From NCBI RefSeq assembly GCF_019891175.1, contig NZ_CP072600.1, positions 1,302,001-1,366,000 of the forward strand: a DNA stretch of 64,000 nucleotides. Direction: 5' to 3'. This DNA is from Leptothermofonsia sichuanensis E412. GTDB taxonomy: Bacteria; Cyanobacteriota; Cyanobacteriia; Leptolyngbyales; Leptolyngbyaceae. Below, piece after piece: positions 46,112-59,755 of this stretch (position 1 is its first letter; the number at the start of each line of letters is the position of its first letter). The notes below the pieces were generated by a model. That model saw only the letters and a list, made by a program, of their open reading frames with translations, was not told the origin of the DNA and made no database searches. Position numbers and translations under genes: made by a program.

Positions 46112-46675
46112 ATGACTGACCCACCCAAAGACCAATCTCTCCCCATTGCTGTTCGGGATATGGACATTAACGACCTGGCTCCTGTGTATCATCTGGGGGA
46201 GTCGTTGTTTACTAGTGACCTGTATCCCTACATCTATCGCACCTGGGATCAGTGGGAAGTCATCGGGCTTTATAACACCGATCCGGAGTACTGCCTGGTG
46301 GCTGAAGTTGATAATCAGCTTGCAGGCTTCATCCTGGGTACCATCATCAACAAAGCCTCGTGGACTTATGGTTACATCATCTGGTTGGGAGTCAGTCCTG
46401 CTTTCCAGCGGCGCGGGATTGCCGACCGTCTGGTTGATAAGCTGGTTGAACGCATGATCGATGATGGTGCCCGGTTCATGATGGTAGATACGGATCCAGA
46501 AAACATTCCAGCAGTCAAATTCTTTACCCGTAAAGGTTTCGGTAACATCCGCAAGCATGTATTTCTGTCCATGAACCTCAGTAAACATGAGTATTACGGC
46601 AAGCTGATCGCCTATGAACGGGAAAAAGCAGAACGTGCTGTGTGGAAGCGCCCGCGTCGTCCAAATAAATCTTGA
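46112..46675 (+). CDS. GNAT-family N-acetyltransferase (RimI-like)
   Basis: 187 residues from ATG 46112 (MTDPPKDQ); the frame is open further up across the repeat but those codons are low-complexity. GNAT landmarks are GYIIWLGVSPAFQRRGIADRLVD (acetyl-CoA loop Q-R-R-G-I-A), MMVDTDPENIPAVKFFTRKGF and MNLSKHEYY. It could acetylate protein N-termini or amines. The stop is 14 bp before recJ, so they are likely one operon. The missing Shine-Dalgarno may lower expression. Confidence 0.88.
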   Translation: MTDPPKDQSLPIAVRDMDINDLAPVYHLGESLFTSDLYPYIYRTWDQWEVIGLYNTDPEYCLVAEVDNQLAGFILGTIINKASWTYGYIIWLGVSPAFQRRGIADRLVDKLVERMIDDGARFMMVDTDPENIPAVKFFTRKGFGNIRKHVFLSMNLSKHEYYGKLIAYEREKAERAVWKRPRRPNKS

Positions 46676-46689
46676 GGATTCTTTTCCCC

Positions 46690-49305
46690 ATGCCCGATCG
46701 CACGCTTCACTGGCAAATTCACTCAACCGCCTCACCTCCCCCGTGGTTCACTGACGCCATTCGGCAGCAGATGCCAGACATTGATGGGCGTTATATTGCT
46801 CAACTGTTATGGCAGCGCGAGATGCGGGATCCAGCCCAGTTGGCGGGGTTTCTGGATGCTCAGTTCTACCATCCCACCAGCCCTTTTGCGTTTGGGCAGG
46901 AGATGGAGTGGGCAGTCGATCGCCTGAGCCAGGCGTATCACAGTCAAGAACCCATTGCCATCTGGGGAGACTTTGACGCCGATGGCGTGACAGCCACAGG
47001 GGTCCTCTGGGATGGCTTGGGGCAGTTCTTTACCCAGCAGAAAACACTTTTTTACTACATTCCAAATCGCCTCACGGAGTCCCACGGACTATCCCGGCAG
47101 GGAATGGACTGGCTGTATGCAAAAGGCTGCCGGTTAATCGTGACCTGTGACACGGGCAGTACCAGCCTGGAAGAGATTGAGTACGCCCGTCACTTAGCCA
47201 TGGATGTGATTGTGACTGACCATCACACCCTGCCACCAGAGCGTCCACCAGTTACTGCCATGATCAATCCCCGTTACCTGCCTGGGGATCATCCCCTGGC
47301 AACACTGTCGGGAGTAGCTGTGGCATACAAACTGGTAGAGGCCCTGTATGAACGGCTGCCACAGGTGCCGCAAAAGCCCCTGGAGCATTTGCTGGATCTG
47401 GTGGCGATCGGGTTAATTGCTGATCTGGTGGAGTTGAAAGGGGATTGCCGCTACCTGGCACAACGGGGAATTGAGCAATTGCAAAAGCAGTCCAATCCAG
47501 CAACCGTAACCCGTCCAGGGGTGGCGAAGCTGCTGGAATTTTGTAAGCGGAGTGGCGATCGCCCCACCGATATCTCCTTTGGGTTGGGTCCCCGGATTAA
47601 TGCCGTCAGCCGCATCCACGGCGATGCCCATTTCTGTGTTGAACTGCTGACCAGCGAGGATACCCAGCTCTGCACTCACCTGGCAGAAGCAACCGAACTG
47701 GCAAACACTCGCCGCAAAGCCCTCCAAAAAGAAGTCACTGAGCAGGTTACCCGCCGGTTAGCTCAACTGGATTTGTCCACTACCGGTGTGATTGTGCTGG
47801 CAGATGAGCAGTGGCAGGTGGGCATCTTGGGGCTGGTTGCCGGGCAGATTGCTCAGGAGTATGGGCGTCCGACTATTTTGTTGAGTACGGAAGGGATGGG
47901 TGGAATAGAAGAGGGGGGAGAGAGGGGAGAGGGGAGAGGAGAGAGGGGAGAGGAGGAGGCGTTGCCGGTTCGGATTCAACGGTTGAAATCCCGGGTGCCG
48001 CTTGCGCGGGGGTCTGCCCGGTCGGTGAACAATATTGACCTGTATCAACTGGTAAAAGACCAGGCACATTTGTTGACAACGTTTGGCGGACATCCCTATG
48101 CAGCCGGGTTGAGCCTTCCAGTTGAAAATCTGCCCCTGTTCACGGAGGGAATAAACCAGACCTTGCGCCAGTCTGTCGATCCAACAGACGCTATCCGACG
48201 AATACAGGCAGATCTGACCGTGACGGTGGCAGAACTGGGGAAGGAACTGTTTCAGGAGTTGAAGCTACTTGAACCTTGCGGTATGGGTAATCCAGTTCCC
48301 CGACTGCTGATTCAGAACTGCTGGTTTGACCGGGTCTGGAATAAGAAGATTCAGGACTGGAAAGGGCAGCAGGTACAGTACATCAAAACTGAATTTGAGC
48401 TTTGGGACGAGTCGGCTACCCAGGGATTTGCGGGGGTCTGGTGGGGACACTACCGGGATGAGCTACCTGCTGGGCGCTGTGATGTGATAGTCGAACTGGA
48501 CAGCAATAATTACAAGAAGCGCTACGAAGTCCGATTGGTGGCTGTGCGCCCCTGTGCGGATCAAATTGAAGCCATGGCTGATACAGCCTGGATTATGGAT
48601 TTGCGGCAGGCGGTGCCGGGAGAAGAGCAGGAAAGCGAGAAAGGAGCGGCTGAACCGTCCTATGAATTGAATGCCTTCAACGCATCCACCCTTCAAGTCC
48701 TACGCAAAATCAGCAACGTCAGCCAGAAATTAGAGTGGCAGAGGGTAGACCAACCAGTTTCTCCATTGTTCCTGCATCAGTGTCCCAGCAGTTGGAGCGA
48801 GTTTCAGGTCTGGCTCCGTCGATCGCGACAGGAACAGCGACCGCTGGCGATCGCCTATCCGTCCCCATCAGATAGGGATCCCCAGGAAATCTGGCACCAA
48901 CTGGTGGGAGTTGCCAAGTATCTGAGCCGCACCGGCAAAACGGTGACCCGACAACAGGTATTGGATCGATTGGGAATTGGCGATCGCGCCCTGGAAATGG
49001 GCTTTCAAACCCTGGGGTATCTGGGTTTTTCCTTCAGTGACGAAGAGAATGCACTGCGCGTTACCTGGCAGTCCCCCCTGGACCCCAAAGCCCAGAGTAA
49101 CCAGGGGATAGAGCCACCATTCATGGCAGCCGTGCAGCAATTCATTGCCGTCGTCAAAGAAGAACAATTTCGCCGTCGTTACTTTTACCAGGTACCCCTG
49201 GCAACGATTCAGGCGGTGGCCGCCCAATTAGATTTGCCGGAAGCAAGGGATGCTGCTGGAAACAGAGATCGCTCCAGCCAGCTCACTGGAATGCCGGATG
49301 GGTAA
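46690..49305 (+). CDS. recJ: Single-stranded-DNA-specific exonuclease RecJ
   Basis: 871 residues from ATG 46690, with GAGG 12 bases upstream. The DHH domain shows GDFDADGVTATG, TCDTGST and VTDHHTLPPE, the metal-binding motifs. The DHHA1 domain has FGGHPYAAGLSL. RecJ digests 5'-ended single strands in recombination and mismatch repair. It is about 290 residues longer than the E. coli enzyme: a C-terminal OB-like part and a further cyanobacterial extension with helical text (QVWLRRSRQEQRPLAIAYP). Between the two core domains residues 407-424 are Gly/Glu/Arg-rich, encoded by a purine repeat. Confidence 0.94.
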   Translation: MPDRTLHWQIHSTASPPPWFTDAIRQQMPDIDGRYIAQLLWQREMRDPAQLAGFLDAQFYHPTSPFAFGQEMEWAVDRLSQAYHSQEPIAIWGDFDADGVTATGVLWDGLGQFFTQQKTLFYYIPNRLTESHGLSRQGMDWLYAKGCRLIVTCDTGSTSLEEIEYARHLAMDVIVTDHHTLPPERPPVTAMINPRYLPGDHPLATLSGVAVAYKLVEALYERLPQVPQKPLEHLLDLVAIGLIADLVELKGDCRYLAQRGIEQLQKQSNPATVTRPGVAKLLEFCKRSGDRPTDISFGLGPRINAVSRIHGDAHFCVELLTSEDTQLCTHLAEATELANTRRKALQKEVTEQVTRRLAQLDLSTTGVIVLADEQWQVGILGLVAGQIAQEYGRPTILLSTEGMGGIEEGGERGEGRGERGEEEALPVRIQRLKSRVPLARGSARSVNNIDLYQLVKDQAHLLTTFGGHPYAAGLSLPVENLPLFTEGINQTLRQSVDPTDAIRRIQADLTVTVAELGKELFQELKLLEPCGMGNPVPRLLIQNCWFDRVWNKKIQDWKGQQVQYIKTEFELWDESATQGFAGVWWGHYRDELPAGRCDVIVELDSNNYKKRYEVRLVAVRPCADQIEAMADTAWIMDLRQAVPGEEQESEKGAAEPSYELNAFNASTLQVLRKISNVSQKLEWQRVDQPVSPLFLHQCPSSWSEFQVWLRRSRQEQRPLAIAYPSPSDRDPQEIWHQLVGVAKYLSRTGKTVTRQQVLDRLGIGDRALEMGFQTLGYLGFSFSDEENALRVTWQSPLDPKAQSNQGIEPPFMAAVQQFIAVVKEEQFRRRYFYQVPLATIQAVAAQLDLPEARDAAGNRDRSSQLTGMPDG
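47908..47959 (+). repeat. Purine repeat inside recJ
   Basis: GAGGGGAGA-type units, all purine over about 50 bases. In the protein they encode alternating Gly, Glu and Arg in the linker between the DHH and DHHA1 domains, just after ILLSTEGMGG. The length keeps the reading frame. Confidence 0.85.
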
Positions 49306-50072: not shown

Positions 50073-50393
50073 AAGTGCTGCTCACAGCATCCTGGATGTT
50101 GGATTTGCGATTTCAGATTGGATAGGGATAGTCCTGCGGAGCAGAACAGGTTTCCGATCGCAAACCCCGTCATGCTGTCTTTTTGACCCTGTTCTCCGTC
50201 CCCTATCCCCTGTCGCCTGCCATATCGGTTTCAACGGTTTTTGGAAAAATTTCTGGCCGCGATCGCATTTTTCCGGATGGGGTGAACTGCCAGCGGATAA
50301 GGATTACATAACCTGAATCCAAGGTTTAACAAAGCACCTCACAAGTTCGGCAGCACCTAACCGATATCTTTTTCACTACTCAAGGAGTCAATC
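50073..50393. other. Gap of 321 bases, promoter region of the Tyr-rich peptide gene
   Basis: Contains a loose heptamer-like run (CCGTCCCCTATCCCCTGTCG near 50197-50216) and a HIP1 site at 50261. The peptide gene has a strong AAGGAG site seven bases before its ATG. No other gene seen. Confidence 0.5.
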
Positions 50394-50603
50394 ATGGAAG
50401 CTACAGCAAAAGAACTGCAAACCAATGAACTGTTCACTGACCTGACCGAAGAGGAATCCTCCACGGTTTCTGGAGGTCACTACTACGGTGGTTACTGCGG
50501 TTACCGGCGGTTCTATGGCTACCGCCCGGTTTACTACCACCGTCCCTACTACGGTTACTACCGTCCTCGCTACCGTCCAGTTGCTTACTACTACTACTGG
50601 TAA
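50394..50603 (+). CDS. Double-glycine leader peptide with Tyr-rich core (putative exported RiPP-like precursor)
   Basis: 69 residues. Residues 1-28 are a typical cyanobacterial double-glycine leader: ELQTNELFTDLTEEE then STVSGG, with hydrophobic residues at the positions C39 peptidases read. The presumed 41-residue core holds 17 Tyr, 7 Arg, 5 Gly, 4 Pro, one Cys and a terminal Trp. It is built from YRP, HRP and YYG units, for example YRPVYYHRPYYGYYRPRYRP, and ends in YYYYW. It contains no Ser or Thr, so it cannot be a lanthipeptide. A terminator follows, then the C39-peptidase exporter gene. Function is unknown; no modifying enzyme is adjacent. Confidence 0.8.
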   Translation: MEATAKELQTNELFTDLTEEESSTVSGGHYYGGYCGYRRFYGYRPVYYHRPYYGYYRPRYRPVAYYYYW

Positions 50604-50660
50604 TTCCGGCGTGGTACCTGGAGTCTAACTCTCTAGCGACGGTTTGTAGTTATCAGTGTG

Positions 50661-50687
50661 ACGCCCGCGAAAGCGGGTGTTTTTTTT
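50661..50687 (+). terminator. Strong terminator between peptide and exporter genes
   Basis: ACGCCCGC, loop GAAA, GCGGGTGT followed by a run of eight T. It lies 58 bases past the peptide stop and 70 bases before the exporter start, so the peptide would be made in large excess over the exporter or the exporter has its own promoter. Confidence 0.9.
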
Positions 50688-50757
50688 CGGAACAGTTAGG
50701 GATGCCGGTGAAGAGTGCTGATATAGCAATCCATGTAGGATCGGGGGAGGTTGCTGA

Positions 50758-52995
50758 GTGAAAGGATTGTTCTTGACTTTCTCTAATTTTGAACACGTGA
50801 AACATTTTCTAGAGTCGCTTCATCTACCAGGAAAGCGAGATCGATCAAAAAAGTATTCTGTTGTTCTGCAACAGAATGAAGAGGACTGTGGCGCTGCCTG
50901 CCTGGGGGCGATCGCCAAACACTATGGCCTTACCCTGACGTTCACTCGCCTGCGGGAAGCAGTGGGCACAGGGCAGCAGGGCACTACGCTGCTGGGGCTA
51001 AAGCGGGGAGCCGAAGTTCTGGGATTTAATGCCCGCTCAGTCCGTGCCTCTATCCAGATTTTGGAGCAAATGGAGGAAGTCCCCCTGCCTGCCATCATCC
51101 ACTGGATGGGTAGCCACTGGGTTGTGTTATACGGGCAACAAAATCAGCAGTATGTCGTCGTCGATCCAGCCGTGGGTGTGCGCTATCTCTCCAAAGAGGA
51201 ACTGTGCGAGGGCTGGGTAGACTGGACCATGCTGTTGCTGGAACCTGACCCTGTCCGGTTCTATGCCCAATCTTCAGATGAACCAGTCCAAGGCATTGGT
51301 AACTTTTTTCAGCGGATATGGGTCTATCGCAAATTGCTGGCAGAAGTGTTACTGATCAACGTGCTGCTGGGTTTGCTATCGATCGCCACGCCCTTTCTAA
51401 TCCAGGTCCTGACCGACGATGTACTGATTCGGGGAGACACCCGCCTGCTCAATGGTCTGGCACTGGGCGTGATTGTGCTCAACCTGTTTAGCAGCAGCAT
51501 GGGCTTAGTGCAGGCAAATTTGATTGCCTATTTTGCTCAGCGGTTAGAACTGGGGCTGGTGCTGGAATTTGGGCGGGCAATTTTGCGGCTGCCACTGACC
51601 TATTATGAAACCCGCCGCAGTGGGGAAGTGGTCAGTCGTTTACGGGACATTCAGGAACTCAACCAGTTGGTGTCCCAGGTGGTCGTCAGTTTACCCAGTC
51701 AGTTTTTTATCGCAATTGTGTCCCTGTTCCTGATGCTGGTCTTTAGCTGGAAGCTGACCCTGGTTGCTTTGATCATTGGGGTGCTGATGACCCTGTCCAC
51801 CCTCCTCTTCCTGCCAACGTTGCAGCAAAAAACTCGTAGCTTGCTGGTCTTGGAGGCTGAAAATCAGGGTGTCCTGGTAGAAACCTTTAAGGGTGCCCTT
51901 ACCCTCAAAACCACCACAGCTACCAACCAGTTTTGGGAAGAGTTCCAGAGCCGGTTTGGCAGATTGGCAAACCTCTCCCTTCGGACTACTCAAATTGGGA
52001 TTGTGAACACTACCTTTTCTGAGCTGGTGTCTGGGGTGGGGGCCGTGACCTTACTCTGGTTCGGTAGCAGCCTGGTAATCAGTCGAGAGCTATCCATTGG
52101 TCAACTCCTGGCATTTGCCAGTTTTAACTCCAACGTGACCGGATTAATCAGCACGGTGGTTAAGTTTGTGGATGAGTTTGCCCGGGTGCGAACAGCCACC
52201 CAGCGGTTAGGAGAAGTCATTGAACACCCGGTAGAAACCAGGGGGGATACCTCCAAACCCTTCGTCAGAATTCCAGAGGAAGCCGCGATTGAGTGCGATC
52301 GCCTGACCTTCCATTATCCCGGTCGCGTTGATCTGCTGGATAACTTTTCCCTCAGGCTGTCTGGTGGTGAAGTGATTGCCCTGATTGGCAAGTCAGGCTG
52401 TGGCAAGAGTACTTTAGCCAAACTGATTGCCGGGCTATATACCTTGCAGGCGGGCAACATCCGGATTGGTGGGTTTAATCTCTCTGATCTGTCACTGGAC
52501 TGTCTGCGCAAACAGGTTGTACTGGTACCCCAGGATGCCCATTTCTGGAGCCGCTCGATTCTAGAAAACTTCCGTCTGGGAACGCCCGATGTCCCGTTTG
52601 AAGAAATTGTTCAGGTCTGTCAGGTCACAGGAGCCGATGAATTCATCAGTCGTCTGCCAGACAAGTATCAGACGATTCTGGGCGAGTTTGGCGCAAACCT
52701 GTCCGGGGGACAGCGGCAGCGACTGGCGATCGCCCGTGCTCTGATTAATGACCCGCCCATCCTGATTCTGGATGAGTCTACTGGAGGACTTGATCCCGTG
52801 AGTGAGGCAGAAGTGCTGGATCATTTACTCTACTATCGCCAGGGAAAAACTACAATCCTGATCAGCCATCGCCCCCGTGTCATCAATCGAGCTGACTGGA
52901 TTGTATTGCTGGATCAGGGAAGGCTGATTACCCAGGGACCCTTAAAGGAACTGCGTAACCAGTTAGGCGAGCACCTGGATTTCCTGACCCCTTAA
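50758..52995 (+). CDS. C39-peptidase ABC exporter (PCAT)
   Basis: 745 residues from GTG 50758 with GGGGGAGG seven bases upstream. Residues 30-165 are a C39 peptidase: Cys 44 in EEDCGAACLG, His 120 in GSHWVVLYG and Asp 136 in VVDPAVG, an intact triad. Then six membrane helices (ABC transmembrane region, 190-470) and an ATPase with Walker A GKSGCGKST, signature NLSGGQRQRLAIARAL and Walker B ILILDESTGGLD. Such proteins cut precursors after a Gly-Gly leader and export the core. The gene directly upstream encodes such a leader. No membrane-fusion (HlyD) gene is nearby, which a two-membrane exporter would need. Confidence 0.95.
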   Translation: MKGLFLTFSNFEHVKHFLESLHLPGKRDRSKKYSVVLQQNEEDCGAACLGAIAKHYGLTLTFTRLREAVGTGQQGTTLLGLKRGAEVLGFNARSVRASIQILEQMEEVPLPAIIHWMGSHWVVLYGQQNQQYVVVDPAVGVRYLSKEELCEGWVDWTMLLLEPDPVRFYAQSSDEPVQGIGNFFQRIWVYRKLLAEVLLINVLLGLLSIATPFLIQVLTDDVLIRGDTRLLNGLALGVIVLNLFSSSMGLVQANLIAYFAQRLELGLVLEFGRAILRLPLTYYETRRSGEVVSRLRDIQELNQLVSQVVVSLPSQFFIAIVSLFLMLVFSWKLTLVALIIGVLMTLSTLLFLPTLQQKTRSLLVLEAENQGVLVETFKGALTLKTTTATNQFWEEFQSRFGRLANLSLRTTQIGIVNTTFSELVSGVGAVTLLWFGSSLVISRELSIGQLLAFASFNSNVTGLISTVVKFVDEFARVRTATQRLGEVIEHPVETRGDTSKPFVRIPEEAAIECDRLTFHYPGRVDLLDNFSLRLSGGEVIALIGKSGCGKSTLAKLIAGLYTLQAGNIRIGGFNLSDLSLDCLRKQVVLVPQDAHFWSRSILENFRLGTPDVPFEEIVQVCQVTGADEFISRLPDKYQTILGEFGANLSGGQRQRLAIARALINDPPILILDESTGGLDPVSEAEVLDHLLYYRQGKTTILISHRPRVINRADWIVLLDQGRLITQGPLKELRNQLGEHLDFLTP

Positions 52996-56794: not shown

Positions 56795-57199
56795 AAAATG
56801 AATTGACTTTTAGCCGAACAGGTGTTCAATGCCTTCATTATCGCAAAAAAAACTTAAGATTTTCGGAATAATGGGGGTTCTTGTGCTATCGATGGCTGGA
56901 GGGCTACGGCAAGAAGGCGGAATTATGTTGGGCTATGTCCGTGCTTAGCAGGCTGGAGGCTGAAGGTGAAATCCCGATAAATTCTAAAGTTGGGCATCCA
57001 GGGACTGTGTGGTTATTTCTGCCAACCTGCACTACGCATTTTTAGAGAGAACCGATAGGGTTAGACTGGCTCCTTTGTCCCGATCGCTTAAGATAGGTCA
57101 GATGCCTGCAACAGATGATACGGGGTTGTGATAAAGGTTCCCTTTGGGCACATGGCGTATGGGTGCATGGAATAAACGTCCTTCAGACGAGTGCTAAAG

Positions 57200-59755
57200 A
57201 TGTTTAACAAATCGTCTAAATCGTCTAATTCGTTATTGCCCCCAACAGAGGCTTTGCCGCCCAGCAACTCTGGTCGGACCCAGAAGGCAAGCACGGTCGT
57301 TGGGGGGCAAAAGAAAAAGGCACTGGTTCGCGGCCATTTTATGGCAGGGGTATGGGCGATTGTGGCAGCGATCGCCACTGCCCATCAAATCAGCCTGGTA
57401 CAGTTCTGGGAGTGCCACACCCAAACCCTTTTCTTCAAGCTCCGGGGTCCAGTGGCCTCTCCCCAGGATATTCTGATTCTGGCAATGGATGACGATTCGG
57501 TTAAAGCCAGCCAGTTTTATCGCAGCGATCCCAACCAGTATGCCTACCTGGCACCGCTACGAACCTCACCCCCTAAGCGCAGTGCCTATGCCATTGCGGT
57601 TGACCGTTTAATGAAGTCCGGTGCCCGCACCGTGTCGATTGATGTACTGTTTGATGCCCCCAGCGATTCTCCTGAAGAGGATGCTGAGTTTGAGAACGTG
57701 CTGCGTCGTTATGCGGGTCGGGTAACCCTGGCCGCCGTTTACAATGCCGAAACGACTCCTCAGGGTGAGCAAACGGAACTGGTTCTCCCAGATCTTGTGT
57801 TTCGGACTTCTCCTGCTTCTATTGGATTTATTAACTATCCCCTTTCCCTTGATGGCAGAATTCACAGGCTGGGTAGCACCTATCCCCAACTGGAGGTGGA
57901 AAATGCCCAACGTCGGGGCAAGAGCTATCCGCCTGAAGTTGCCGAGCAGATTGTGCGGCGCTCAAAGGAATTGTTTTTTGAGCAGGGCAAAGATATTCTC
58001 TCATTTGCAGAAGCCACCCTCAAAGCAGCCAGAATTCCTTACCAGCCATCCCGGGGGCACACTATTTTTTTCTACGGTCCTGATCGGACGTTTCCCCATA
58101 TTCCTCTGCGGGATGTTTTGGACCCGGAAACCTGGAATCAACATCTTCAGCAAGAAACGTTTCGAAACAAAATTGTCCTGATCGGACCTACGGCTAAGGT
58201 TTATCAGGATCTCCACGCAACGCCCTTTTCTAAAACCTTTCCCTACACCACGCCGATGGCAGGGGTAGAGGTCAACGCCAATGCGATCGCCACGTTACTG
58301 GAGAACAAGTCCATTGCTGAAGCTATTCCCAACCCGTCCTGGCGGGGTGCCACCGTGCTGGTGATTGTGCTGGCGGCGGCTGGTATTCAGAGTGCTTTTT
58401 TGTTGTTCTTGGCCTCTGCCCACCGCTTTCAGAAACAACTTCAGCCTTCCCTGCTGCGGTTTATTCTGGCTGCCGGAACTGTGCATCTGGTAACTGCCGG
58501 GGCGATCGCCCTTGCCTGGGGGGGAATTAGCTATTTTGCATTCGTGAATGGTCAACTGATTTTGCCGGTAGCAGCTCCCATGGCGGCGATCTCCCTCAGC
58601 GGTGTTAGTTACTTTGTGGCAGCCTCTGCCAGCGAATACCGCAGCAAACTTCAAATTGTCAAAATTCTGGCCCAGTTTCCCCGATCAGAAGTGGTCCAGA
58701 GAATTTTGCATGAGTACGTTGAGTTTCAAGATTTACTCCAGGAACCAGAACAGGCATTTTTCGGAAAAATCCTGAAGGATCGGTACCGGGTCACTAAGGT
58801 TTTAGGTTCCGGTGGCTTTGGCAGGACCTATATTGCTGAAGATACGCAGCGTCCAGGTAATCCCCTCTGTGTCGTCAAGCAACTCAGACCGGCCAGTGAC
58901 AATGCCAACCTGGTACAGCTTGCCAAGCGTCTGTTTGAGCGGGAGGCCCGGACGCTGGAAAAACTGGGAAAACACAGCCAGATTCCTCAATTGCTGGCAA
59001 ATTTTGAGGAAGATGGAGAATTTTACCTGATCCAGGAGTTCATTCCAGGCAGCCCCCTGAGTCAGGAACTTCCGCTTGGGAAACAACTCCCTGAAGCCAG
59101 AGTCGTTGGTATTTTGCGGGAAATCCTCCAAATTTTAGAGTTCGTCCACAGTCAAGATGTCATCCATCGAGATATTAAACCGGGCAACATCATTCGACGT
59201 AACTCAGACGGTAAGCTGGTTCTGATTGATTTTGGTGCTGTCAAAATTTCTGATCAGATAGAATCCGAAAGGCATACGGCGCTTACGGTTGGAATTGGCA
59301 CAAAAGGCTATATGCCCAGTGAGCAAAGTGAGGGTAAGCCAAAACCTAACAGTGACATTTACGCGCTTGGGATGATTGGGATTCAGGCGCTAACCGGGCT
59401 TTTCCCCAATCAAATTCGGGAAAAGGAAGACTTAAAGACAGGCGAAATTGCTTGGAAAGAGTGGGCAAAGGTTAGCCAGCCGCTGGCAGAAATACTCAGT
59501 AAGATGGTGCTTTATGACTATCGGAAGCGCTACCAAACAGCGACCCAGGTGTTGCAAGACCTCAACAGTCTGCCAGTTTCTACGGCTCCTCCCCCGCCGG
59601 TAGAGGATGAACCTGTCATGCCGACTGACCGATCCAGTGATCTGGATGCTTACGTCGTAGAAGAAACCCGTCCCTGGCCCCAAACCTTTGGCTCAATATC
59701 GGACCCTTTAAGTGGGAAGAATGTTCAAGATTCGGAGGATCAGGGCAATCCTTAA
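57200..59755 (+). CDS. CHASE2-domain Ser/Thr protein kinase
   Basis: 851 residues from ATG 57200 (MFNKSSKSSN); a GTG three codons upstream is in frame. After one membrane helix, residues 60-400 form a CHASE2 sensor outside the membrane (SVKASQFYRSDPNQYAYLAP, KIVLIGPTAKVYQDLHATPF in parts). Three helices follow at about 390-480, then a Hanks-type kinase with glycine loop VLGSGGFGRTYIAE, catalytic HRDIKPGNII and DFGAVK, all intact. The tail of 80 residues is Pro/Glu-rich. CHASE2 kinases are abundant in filamentous cyanobacteria; ligand and targets are unknown. Confidence 0.93.
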   Translation: MFNKSSKSSNSLLPPTEALPPSNSGRTQKASTVVGGQKKKALVRGHFMAGVWAIVAAIATAHQISLVQFWECHTQTLFFKLRGPVASPQDILILAMDDDSVKASQFYRSDPNQYAYLAPLRTSPPKRSAYAIAVDRLMKSGARTVSIDVLFDAPSDSPEEDAEFENVLRRYAGRVTLAAVYNAETTPQGEQTELVLPDLVFRTSPASIGFINYPLSLDGRIHRLGSTYPQLEVENAQRRGKSYPPEVAEQIVRRSKELFFEQGKDILSFAEATLKAARIPYQPSRGHTIFFYGPDRTFPHIPLRDVLDPETWNQHLQQETFRNKIVLIGPTAKVYQDLHATPFSKTFPYTTPMAGVEVNANAIATLLENKSIAEAIPNPSWRGATVLVIVLAAAGIQSAFLLFLASAHRFQKQLQPSLLRFILAAGTVHLVTAGAIALAWGGISYFAFVNGQLILPVAAPMAAISLSGVSYFVAASASEYRSKLQIVKILAQFPRSEVVQRILHEYVEFQDLLQEPEQAFFGKILKDRYRVTKVLGSGGFGRTYIAEDTQRPGNPLCVVKQLRPASDNANLVQLAKRLFEREARTLEKLGKHSQIPQLLANFEEDGEFYLIQEFIPGSPLSQELPLGKQLPEARVVGILREILQILEFVHSQDVIHRDIKPGNIIRRNSDGKLVLIDFGAVKISDQIESERHTALTVGIGTKGYMPSEQSEGKPKPNSDIYALGMIGIQALTGLFPNQIREKEDLKTGEIAWKEWAKVSQPLAEILSKMVLYDYRKRYQTATQVLQDLNSLPVSTAPPPPVEDEPVMPTDRSSDLDAYVVEETRPWPQTFGSISDPLSGKNVQDSEDQGNP

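Follow-up and report, generated by a model that had tools for sequence, protein, structure and literature searches.

The closest described counterparts of the locus analyzed here are found in Synechococcus elongatus, where EbfG1 to EbfG4 were characterized as biofilm matrix proteins made with a double-glycine leader (PMC4997328; PMC9981879). The EbfG proteins are needed for biofilm formation, and EbfG1 to EbfG3 form amyloid (PMC9981879). In the same organism, efficient EbfG export and biofilm formation depend on the cysteine of the C39 domain of PteB (PMC4997328). Known cargoes with a Gly-Gly leader are thus not limited to bacteriocins, lanthipeptides and signals, as the original prediction had wrongly assumed. 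Similar gene arrangements are the group III 'bacteriocin' clusters (Wang et al., 2011; PMC3140520), which combine a short-type C39 exporter with HlyD and one to several double-glycine precursors. Most cargo of cyanobacterial double-glycine exporters has been labelled 'bacteriocin' without tests.

The window analyzed in this study, a stretch of 64,000 nucleotides from the genome of Leptothermofonsia sichuanensis E412, contains a gene for a small double-glycine precursor directly upstream of a C39 exporter gene (Table 1). The coordinates, the Gly-Gly leader of 28 residues and the Tyr-rich core of 41 residues were all found as originally described. The leader ends in STVSGG, and its positions L13, F14 and G27 are invariant in the alignment of the window peptide with 24 relatives. 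The core contains 17 Tyr, 7 Arg, 5 Gly and 4 Pro, is free of Ser, Thr, Lys, Asp and Glu, and has the C-terminus YYYYW. When all six frames of the window were compared, it was found to be the 41-residue stretch richest in Tyr.

Table 1. Features of the peptide-exporter locus (positions within the window).
Feature	Position	Strand	Evidence
Ribosome-binding-site-like AAGGAG	50382..50387	+	Upstream of the peptide ATG; read from the sequence
Tyr/Arg-rich double-glycine precursor peptide, 69 aa	50394..50603	+	ORF; dN/dS against same-genus homolog; homologs beside orthologous exporters
Leader, 28 aa, ...ELFTDLTEEESSTVSGG	50394..50477	+	Alignment with 24 relatives; leader profile recovers more members
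Core, 41 aa, predicted mature peptide from HYYGG	50478..50600	+	Cleavage after GG predicted from the leader
Conserved intergenic element: hairpin (50660-50681), T-run, CGGA/CTGA	50654..50703	+	Terminator scan; shared by most Tyr-rich loci; two-sided pair changes
C39-peptidase ABC exporter (PCAT), 745 aa, PteB ortholog	50758..52995	+	Pfam; PCAT1 structure match; reciprocal best match to the exporter beside EbfG1-4
C39 peptidase domain, residues 32-161	50851..51240	+	Pfam; Q38/C44/H120/D136 conserved

The nearest homolog, from a genome of the same genus (G001), is 84% identical to the window peptide. Between the two genes, codon positions 1, 2 and 3 take 9, 7 and 28 substitutions, respectively. 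This corresponds to a dN of 0.12 and a dS of 1.20 for the whole frame and to 0.098 and 1.01 for the core alone. The peptide frame, including the core, is therefore under purifying selection, with a dN/dS of about 0.1 relative to its nearest relative. The same picture was mostly repeated in further pairs of relatives, an Okeania pair being too close to inform. The substitution pattern in these pairs argues that the core is selected as a protein and not merely as a DNA composition. Non-conservation of the frame with the exporter had been named beforehand as evidence against the prediction; both the frame and its linkage to the exporter proved to be conserved across many genomes. Judged by these sequence comparisons, the peptide gene is real, conserved and exporter-linked.

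The exporter was identified by Pfam as a protein with Peptidase_C39, ABC_membrane and ABC_tran domains. The Walker A, LSGGQ and Walker B motifs are intact, so that the expectation of an intact C39 exporter downstream of the peptide was borne out for the domains, the C39 residues and the ABC motifs alike. It consists of the C39 and ABC parts without an N-terminal extension, which is the short type characteristic of group III. Similarity to PCAT1 (PDB 4ry2) extends over residues 30-732 and covers the same three domains. PCAT1 comes from a Gram-positive source, whereas the window exporter would be expected to depend on an adaptor and on a channel in the outer membrane.

To place the exporter relative to PteB, the published N-terminus of EbfG1 was used as a search pattern, which matched one genome. 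The matched locus encodes four leader peptides that agree with the published sequences TTYNPPSYPYPSYPK, SGYSIPTYPK and LLQTANSVAAAIAK (PMC4997328), and the exporter that follows them is PteB by position. This protein and the window exporter are reciprocal best matches with 55% identity over 714 residues, compared to 34-36% for the runners-up. The PteB match reaches about 900 bits, against 404 for the next best protein in the window's genome. On the basis of this reciprocal relationship the window exporter is assigned as the PteB ortholog, and since the two are reciprocal best matches, the locus is best read as a PteB-type export system, with the same export route and a new, lineage-specific Tyr/Arg-rich cargo. 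Export of the core through the adjoining exporter, as originally predicted, is very likely, given the conservation of the peptide-exporter pair and the orthology of the exporter to PteB.

Like the EbfG system of S. elongatus PCC 7942, the locus has its small double-glycine precursor directly upstream of the orthologous exporter, and the cores of EbfG1 and EbfG2 also start with a Tyr/Pro-rich stretch, in their case together with the motif SVxQSV. The window core, however, is Tyr/Arg-rich throughout, whereas the EbfG cores are rich in Ser, Ala and Thr, and it lacks both the amyloid-hotspot tail and SVxQSV. No similarity to the four EbfG cores was visible; SVxQ[ST]V was found only in some relatives from the Leptolyngbyaceae, whose cargo includes an additional two-part core form with a Tyr/Arg/Pro-rich part followed by SVxQ[ST]VNVNV. 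The group III clusters differ in their cores, which are rich in Gly, Cys, Ser and Thr; the available part of the paper by Wang et al. (2011; PMC3140520) mentions none that are Tyr/Arg-rich and free of Lys.

No Pfam match was obtained for the peptide, and neither Pfam nor NCBIfam holds a family for its core. The leader resembles the start of the CTB family bacteriocin model (NCBIfam NF038167); no match to this or the class II bacteriocin models reached the cut-off, the best score being 13 bits against 32, and the core was unmatched. A modified RiPP of the lanthipeptide or NHLP/Nif11 type is not supported either, as no modifying enzyme was recognized among the recurring neighbours of 39 loci; for lanthionine, the window core offers no Ser or Thr. 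Literature searches returned no description of Tyr-rich double-glycine peptides.

Such peptides are widespread beside exporters orthologous to that of the window. Relatives were identified in G001, G006, G018, G027 and other genomes; weak matches above an E-value of about 0.1 in the initial search were discarded as mostly chance reading frames within other genes. In all seven of the relatives' loci that were fetched first, an exporter with 68-85% identity lies near the peptide. An exporter-alignment search of reference genomes yielded 80 named loci. Using the leader profile, short double-glycine ORFs were detected near 76 of 113 exporters, and at 39 of the 113 loci scored at least one core was Tyr-rich (15% Tyr or more). 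On the exporter tree, the Tyr-rich loci make up 8 of 9 in a Leptolyngbyaceae clade and 30 of 32 in a Microcoleaceae/Oscillatoriales clade, and none of the 56 loci in a third, largely heterocystous clade. This distribution requires 6 changes compared to 31.9 in shuffles, a clustering to which near-copies contribute. A peptide-profile search independent of the exporter gave matches in 30 of 291 genomes, part of which were leader-only matches with other cores; a C39 exporter homolog was present in 23 of the 31 newly fetched regions around these matches. Dozens of mat-forming cyanobacteria keep a similar peptide-exporter pair, so that these surface or matrix peptides probably make up a family without a name so far.

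Among the 58 distinct Tyr-rich cores, the median length is 40.5 residues and the mean net charge +7.3; on average, Tyr makes up 25% of a core, and there are 8.8 Arg but 0.03 Lys. One or two Cys are usual. The last residue is aromatic in 72% of the cores, compared to 29% expected from composition, with the reservation that related sequences are not independent. Across the cores the composition is kept, while the sequence is poorly conserved and the length varies, a pattern easier to reconcile with self-association or adhesion than with binding to a receptor. Some genomes carry near-identical tandem copies of the peptide (locus L058).

Several other leader peptides were noticed during this survey. 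One of them (L168:7025-7186) has a core with 48% Tyr (RYCYYYWAYRCYWYYYRYICRYFRYIYCY), and no exporter homolog was found within the 14.5 kb fetched. In three Nostoc loci (L049, L060 and L063), the double-glycine peptides next to the same exporter type have poly-Thr cores and Gly-rich cores resembling collagen, a further kind of low-complexity cargo. At L169, L170, L171, L182 and L188, leader peptides of 29-33 aa lie beside exporters of the same family; they are rich in Arg and aromatic residues, mostly with four spaced Cys, and look like disulfide-stapled cationic peptides.

The terminator that had been predicted between peptide and exporter was recovered as a conserved element. A hairpin, a T-run and a trailing CTGA or CGGA separate the last peptide from the exporter in the window and in most Tyr-rich loci. 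In 22 sequences, the nine hairpin pairs are formed in 95.5% of cases, and six of the nine show two-sided changes, which exceeds every slid control. No known RNA family in Rfam corresponds to the element. Partial read-through from a plentiful peptide mRNA would supply the exporter, and the terminator would allow far more peptide than exporter to be made. The CTGAT/CGGA(T) motif directly after the T-run (50688-50692 in the window) is kept across families.

In the same-genus genome G001, an HlyD gene, two Tyr-rich peptides and the exporter lie together. More generally, an HlyD-family gene is located divergently upstream in 31 of the 39 Tyr-rich loci (the domain was checked for two); HlyD is also a component of the group III clusters. 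It is not part of the window locus; its ortholog was found at 5.31 Mb of the same genome, where the flanking gene, of 205 aa, is of the same type as the one in G001. At 1.17 Mb, the genome encodes another Tyr-rich leader peptide, which resembles the first peptide of G001. Since HlyD and the second peptide are distant here and together in G001, the cassette is probably scattered in the window's genome. The exporter had been called dedicated to the adjoining peptide, which is indeed its likely cargo. The term is too narrow, because the counterpart of the second peptide adjoins the exporter in G001, and at least two peptides are probably among the cargo of the window exporter.

These features are best explained by a secretion cassette of the PteB type (Wang group III) that exports a lineage-specific Tyr/Arg-rich peptide with a double-glycine leader. 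The peptide would be synthesized as a leader-core precursor and cleaved after Gly-Gly by the C39 domain of the adjoining exporter, and the core would leave the cell via the exporter, an HlyD-type adaptor and an outer-membrane channel. Outside the cell, the mature Lys-free peptide may act as a self-associating or adhesive component of the surface or matrix, with cohesion provided by Tyr-Tyr and Arg-Tyr contacts. Such a role at the surface or in the matrix outside the cell is the leading interpretation, judged slightly more probable than not. Of the roles originally proposed, the surface or structural one gains from the EbfG/PteB precedent; for dityrosine, neither a dityrosine-forming nor any other modifying enzyme recurs at the loci. 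Several observations count against this reading. The window core is without visible similarity to EbfG and without the SVxQSV tail, and HlyD is absent from the locus in this genome. Orthologous exporters in other lineages carry very different cargo, and the function can therefore not be read from the exporter alone. Strong positive charge and aromaticity also suit antimicrobial peptides, which some short four-Cys relatives resemble.

The strongest rival is a cationic, bacteriocin-like peptide released against competitors, which is considered rather unlikely. A double-glycine leader with a C39 exporter is classic for bacteriocins, the net charge of about +7 without any acidic residue would fit, and the leader shows the weak likeness to the CTB and class II models described above, below the cut-off. 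The sister set of short, mostly four-Cys peptides beside the same exporter family also looks antimicrobial. However, the search for an immunity gene, which looked for conserved small ORFs without a leader in the vicinity of the peptides, revealed none; the small ORFs that recurred lay at the HlyD position, out of frame or opposite. The low-complexity, nearly Lys-free cores, their near-identical tandem copies and the secretion of biofilm proteins by the exporter ortholog speak against this reading as well.

That the peptide is the precursor of a covalent polymer, linked through dityrosine or another oxidative tyrosine bond, appears improbable: none of the recurring neighbours of the 39 loci was recognized as encoding an oxidase, a peroxidase, a tyrosinase or a radical-SAM enzyme. 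It would nevertheless account for the conserved Tyr-rich composition, with many of the Tyr residues adjacent, and for secretion into an oxygen-rich surface, where photosynthetic oxygen could oxidize Tyr without a dedicated enzyme. The least probable of the three rivals takes the peptide for a signal or for an accessory factor that gliding filaments use in motility or slime secretion. The Tyr-rich loci found occur mainly in filamentous non-heterocystous genera (such as Microcoleus, Tychonema, Okeania and Leptolyngbya), which are known for gliding or mats, and Ser/Thr kinase genes lie near some of them. Against it, no receptor or regulator recurs, and low-complexity, repeat-like cores of freely varying length are unlike ligands read by a receptor.

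PteB orthology and whole-cargo swaps between lineages suggest a shared surface or matrix secretion route with interchangeable low-complexity peptides. One peptide gene and one exporter would form a compact system for the cohesion of mat-forming cyanobacteria, and its product an unusual natural material built on Tyr and Arg alone. A more far-reaching proposal, tentative and possible at best, is that Lys-free Tyr/Arg 'sticker' peptides form a widespread unnamed class, secreted in bulk by PteB-type exporters and self-assembling as a condensate, a fibre or an oxidatively cross-linked film into the adhesive layer at the surface of filamentous cyanobacteria that form mats. If true, bacteria would have their own equivalent of mussel-foot or silk-like materials, made of units of about 40 residues.

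Downstream of the locus, the window encodes a fusion of a CHASE2 domain with a Ser/Thr kinase (57191-59755), and kinases with a similar kinase domain were found near HlyD in the cassettes of several relatives. Elsewhere in the window, the RecJ ORF (46672-49305) contains an in-frame low-complexity insert of Glu, Gly and Arg that derives from a GA-rich repeat (47811-48093).
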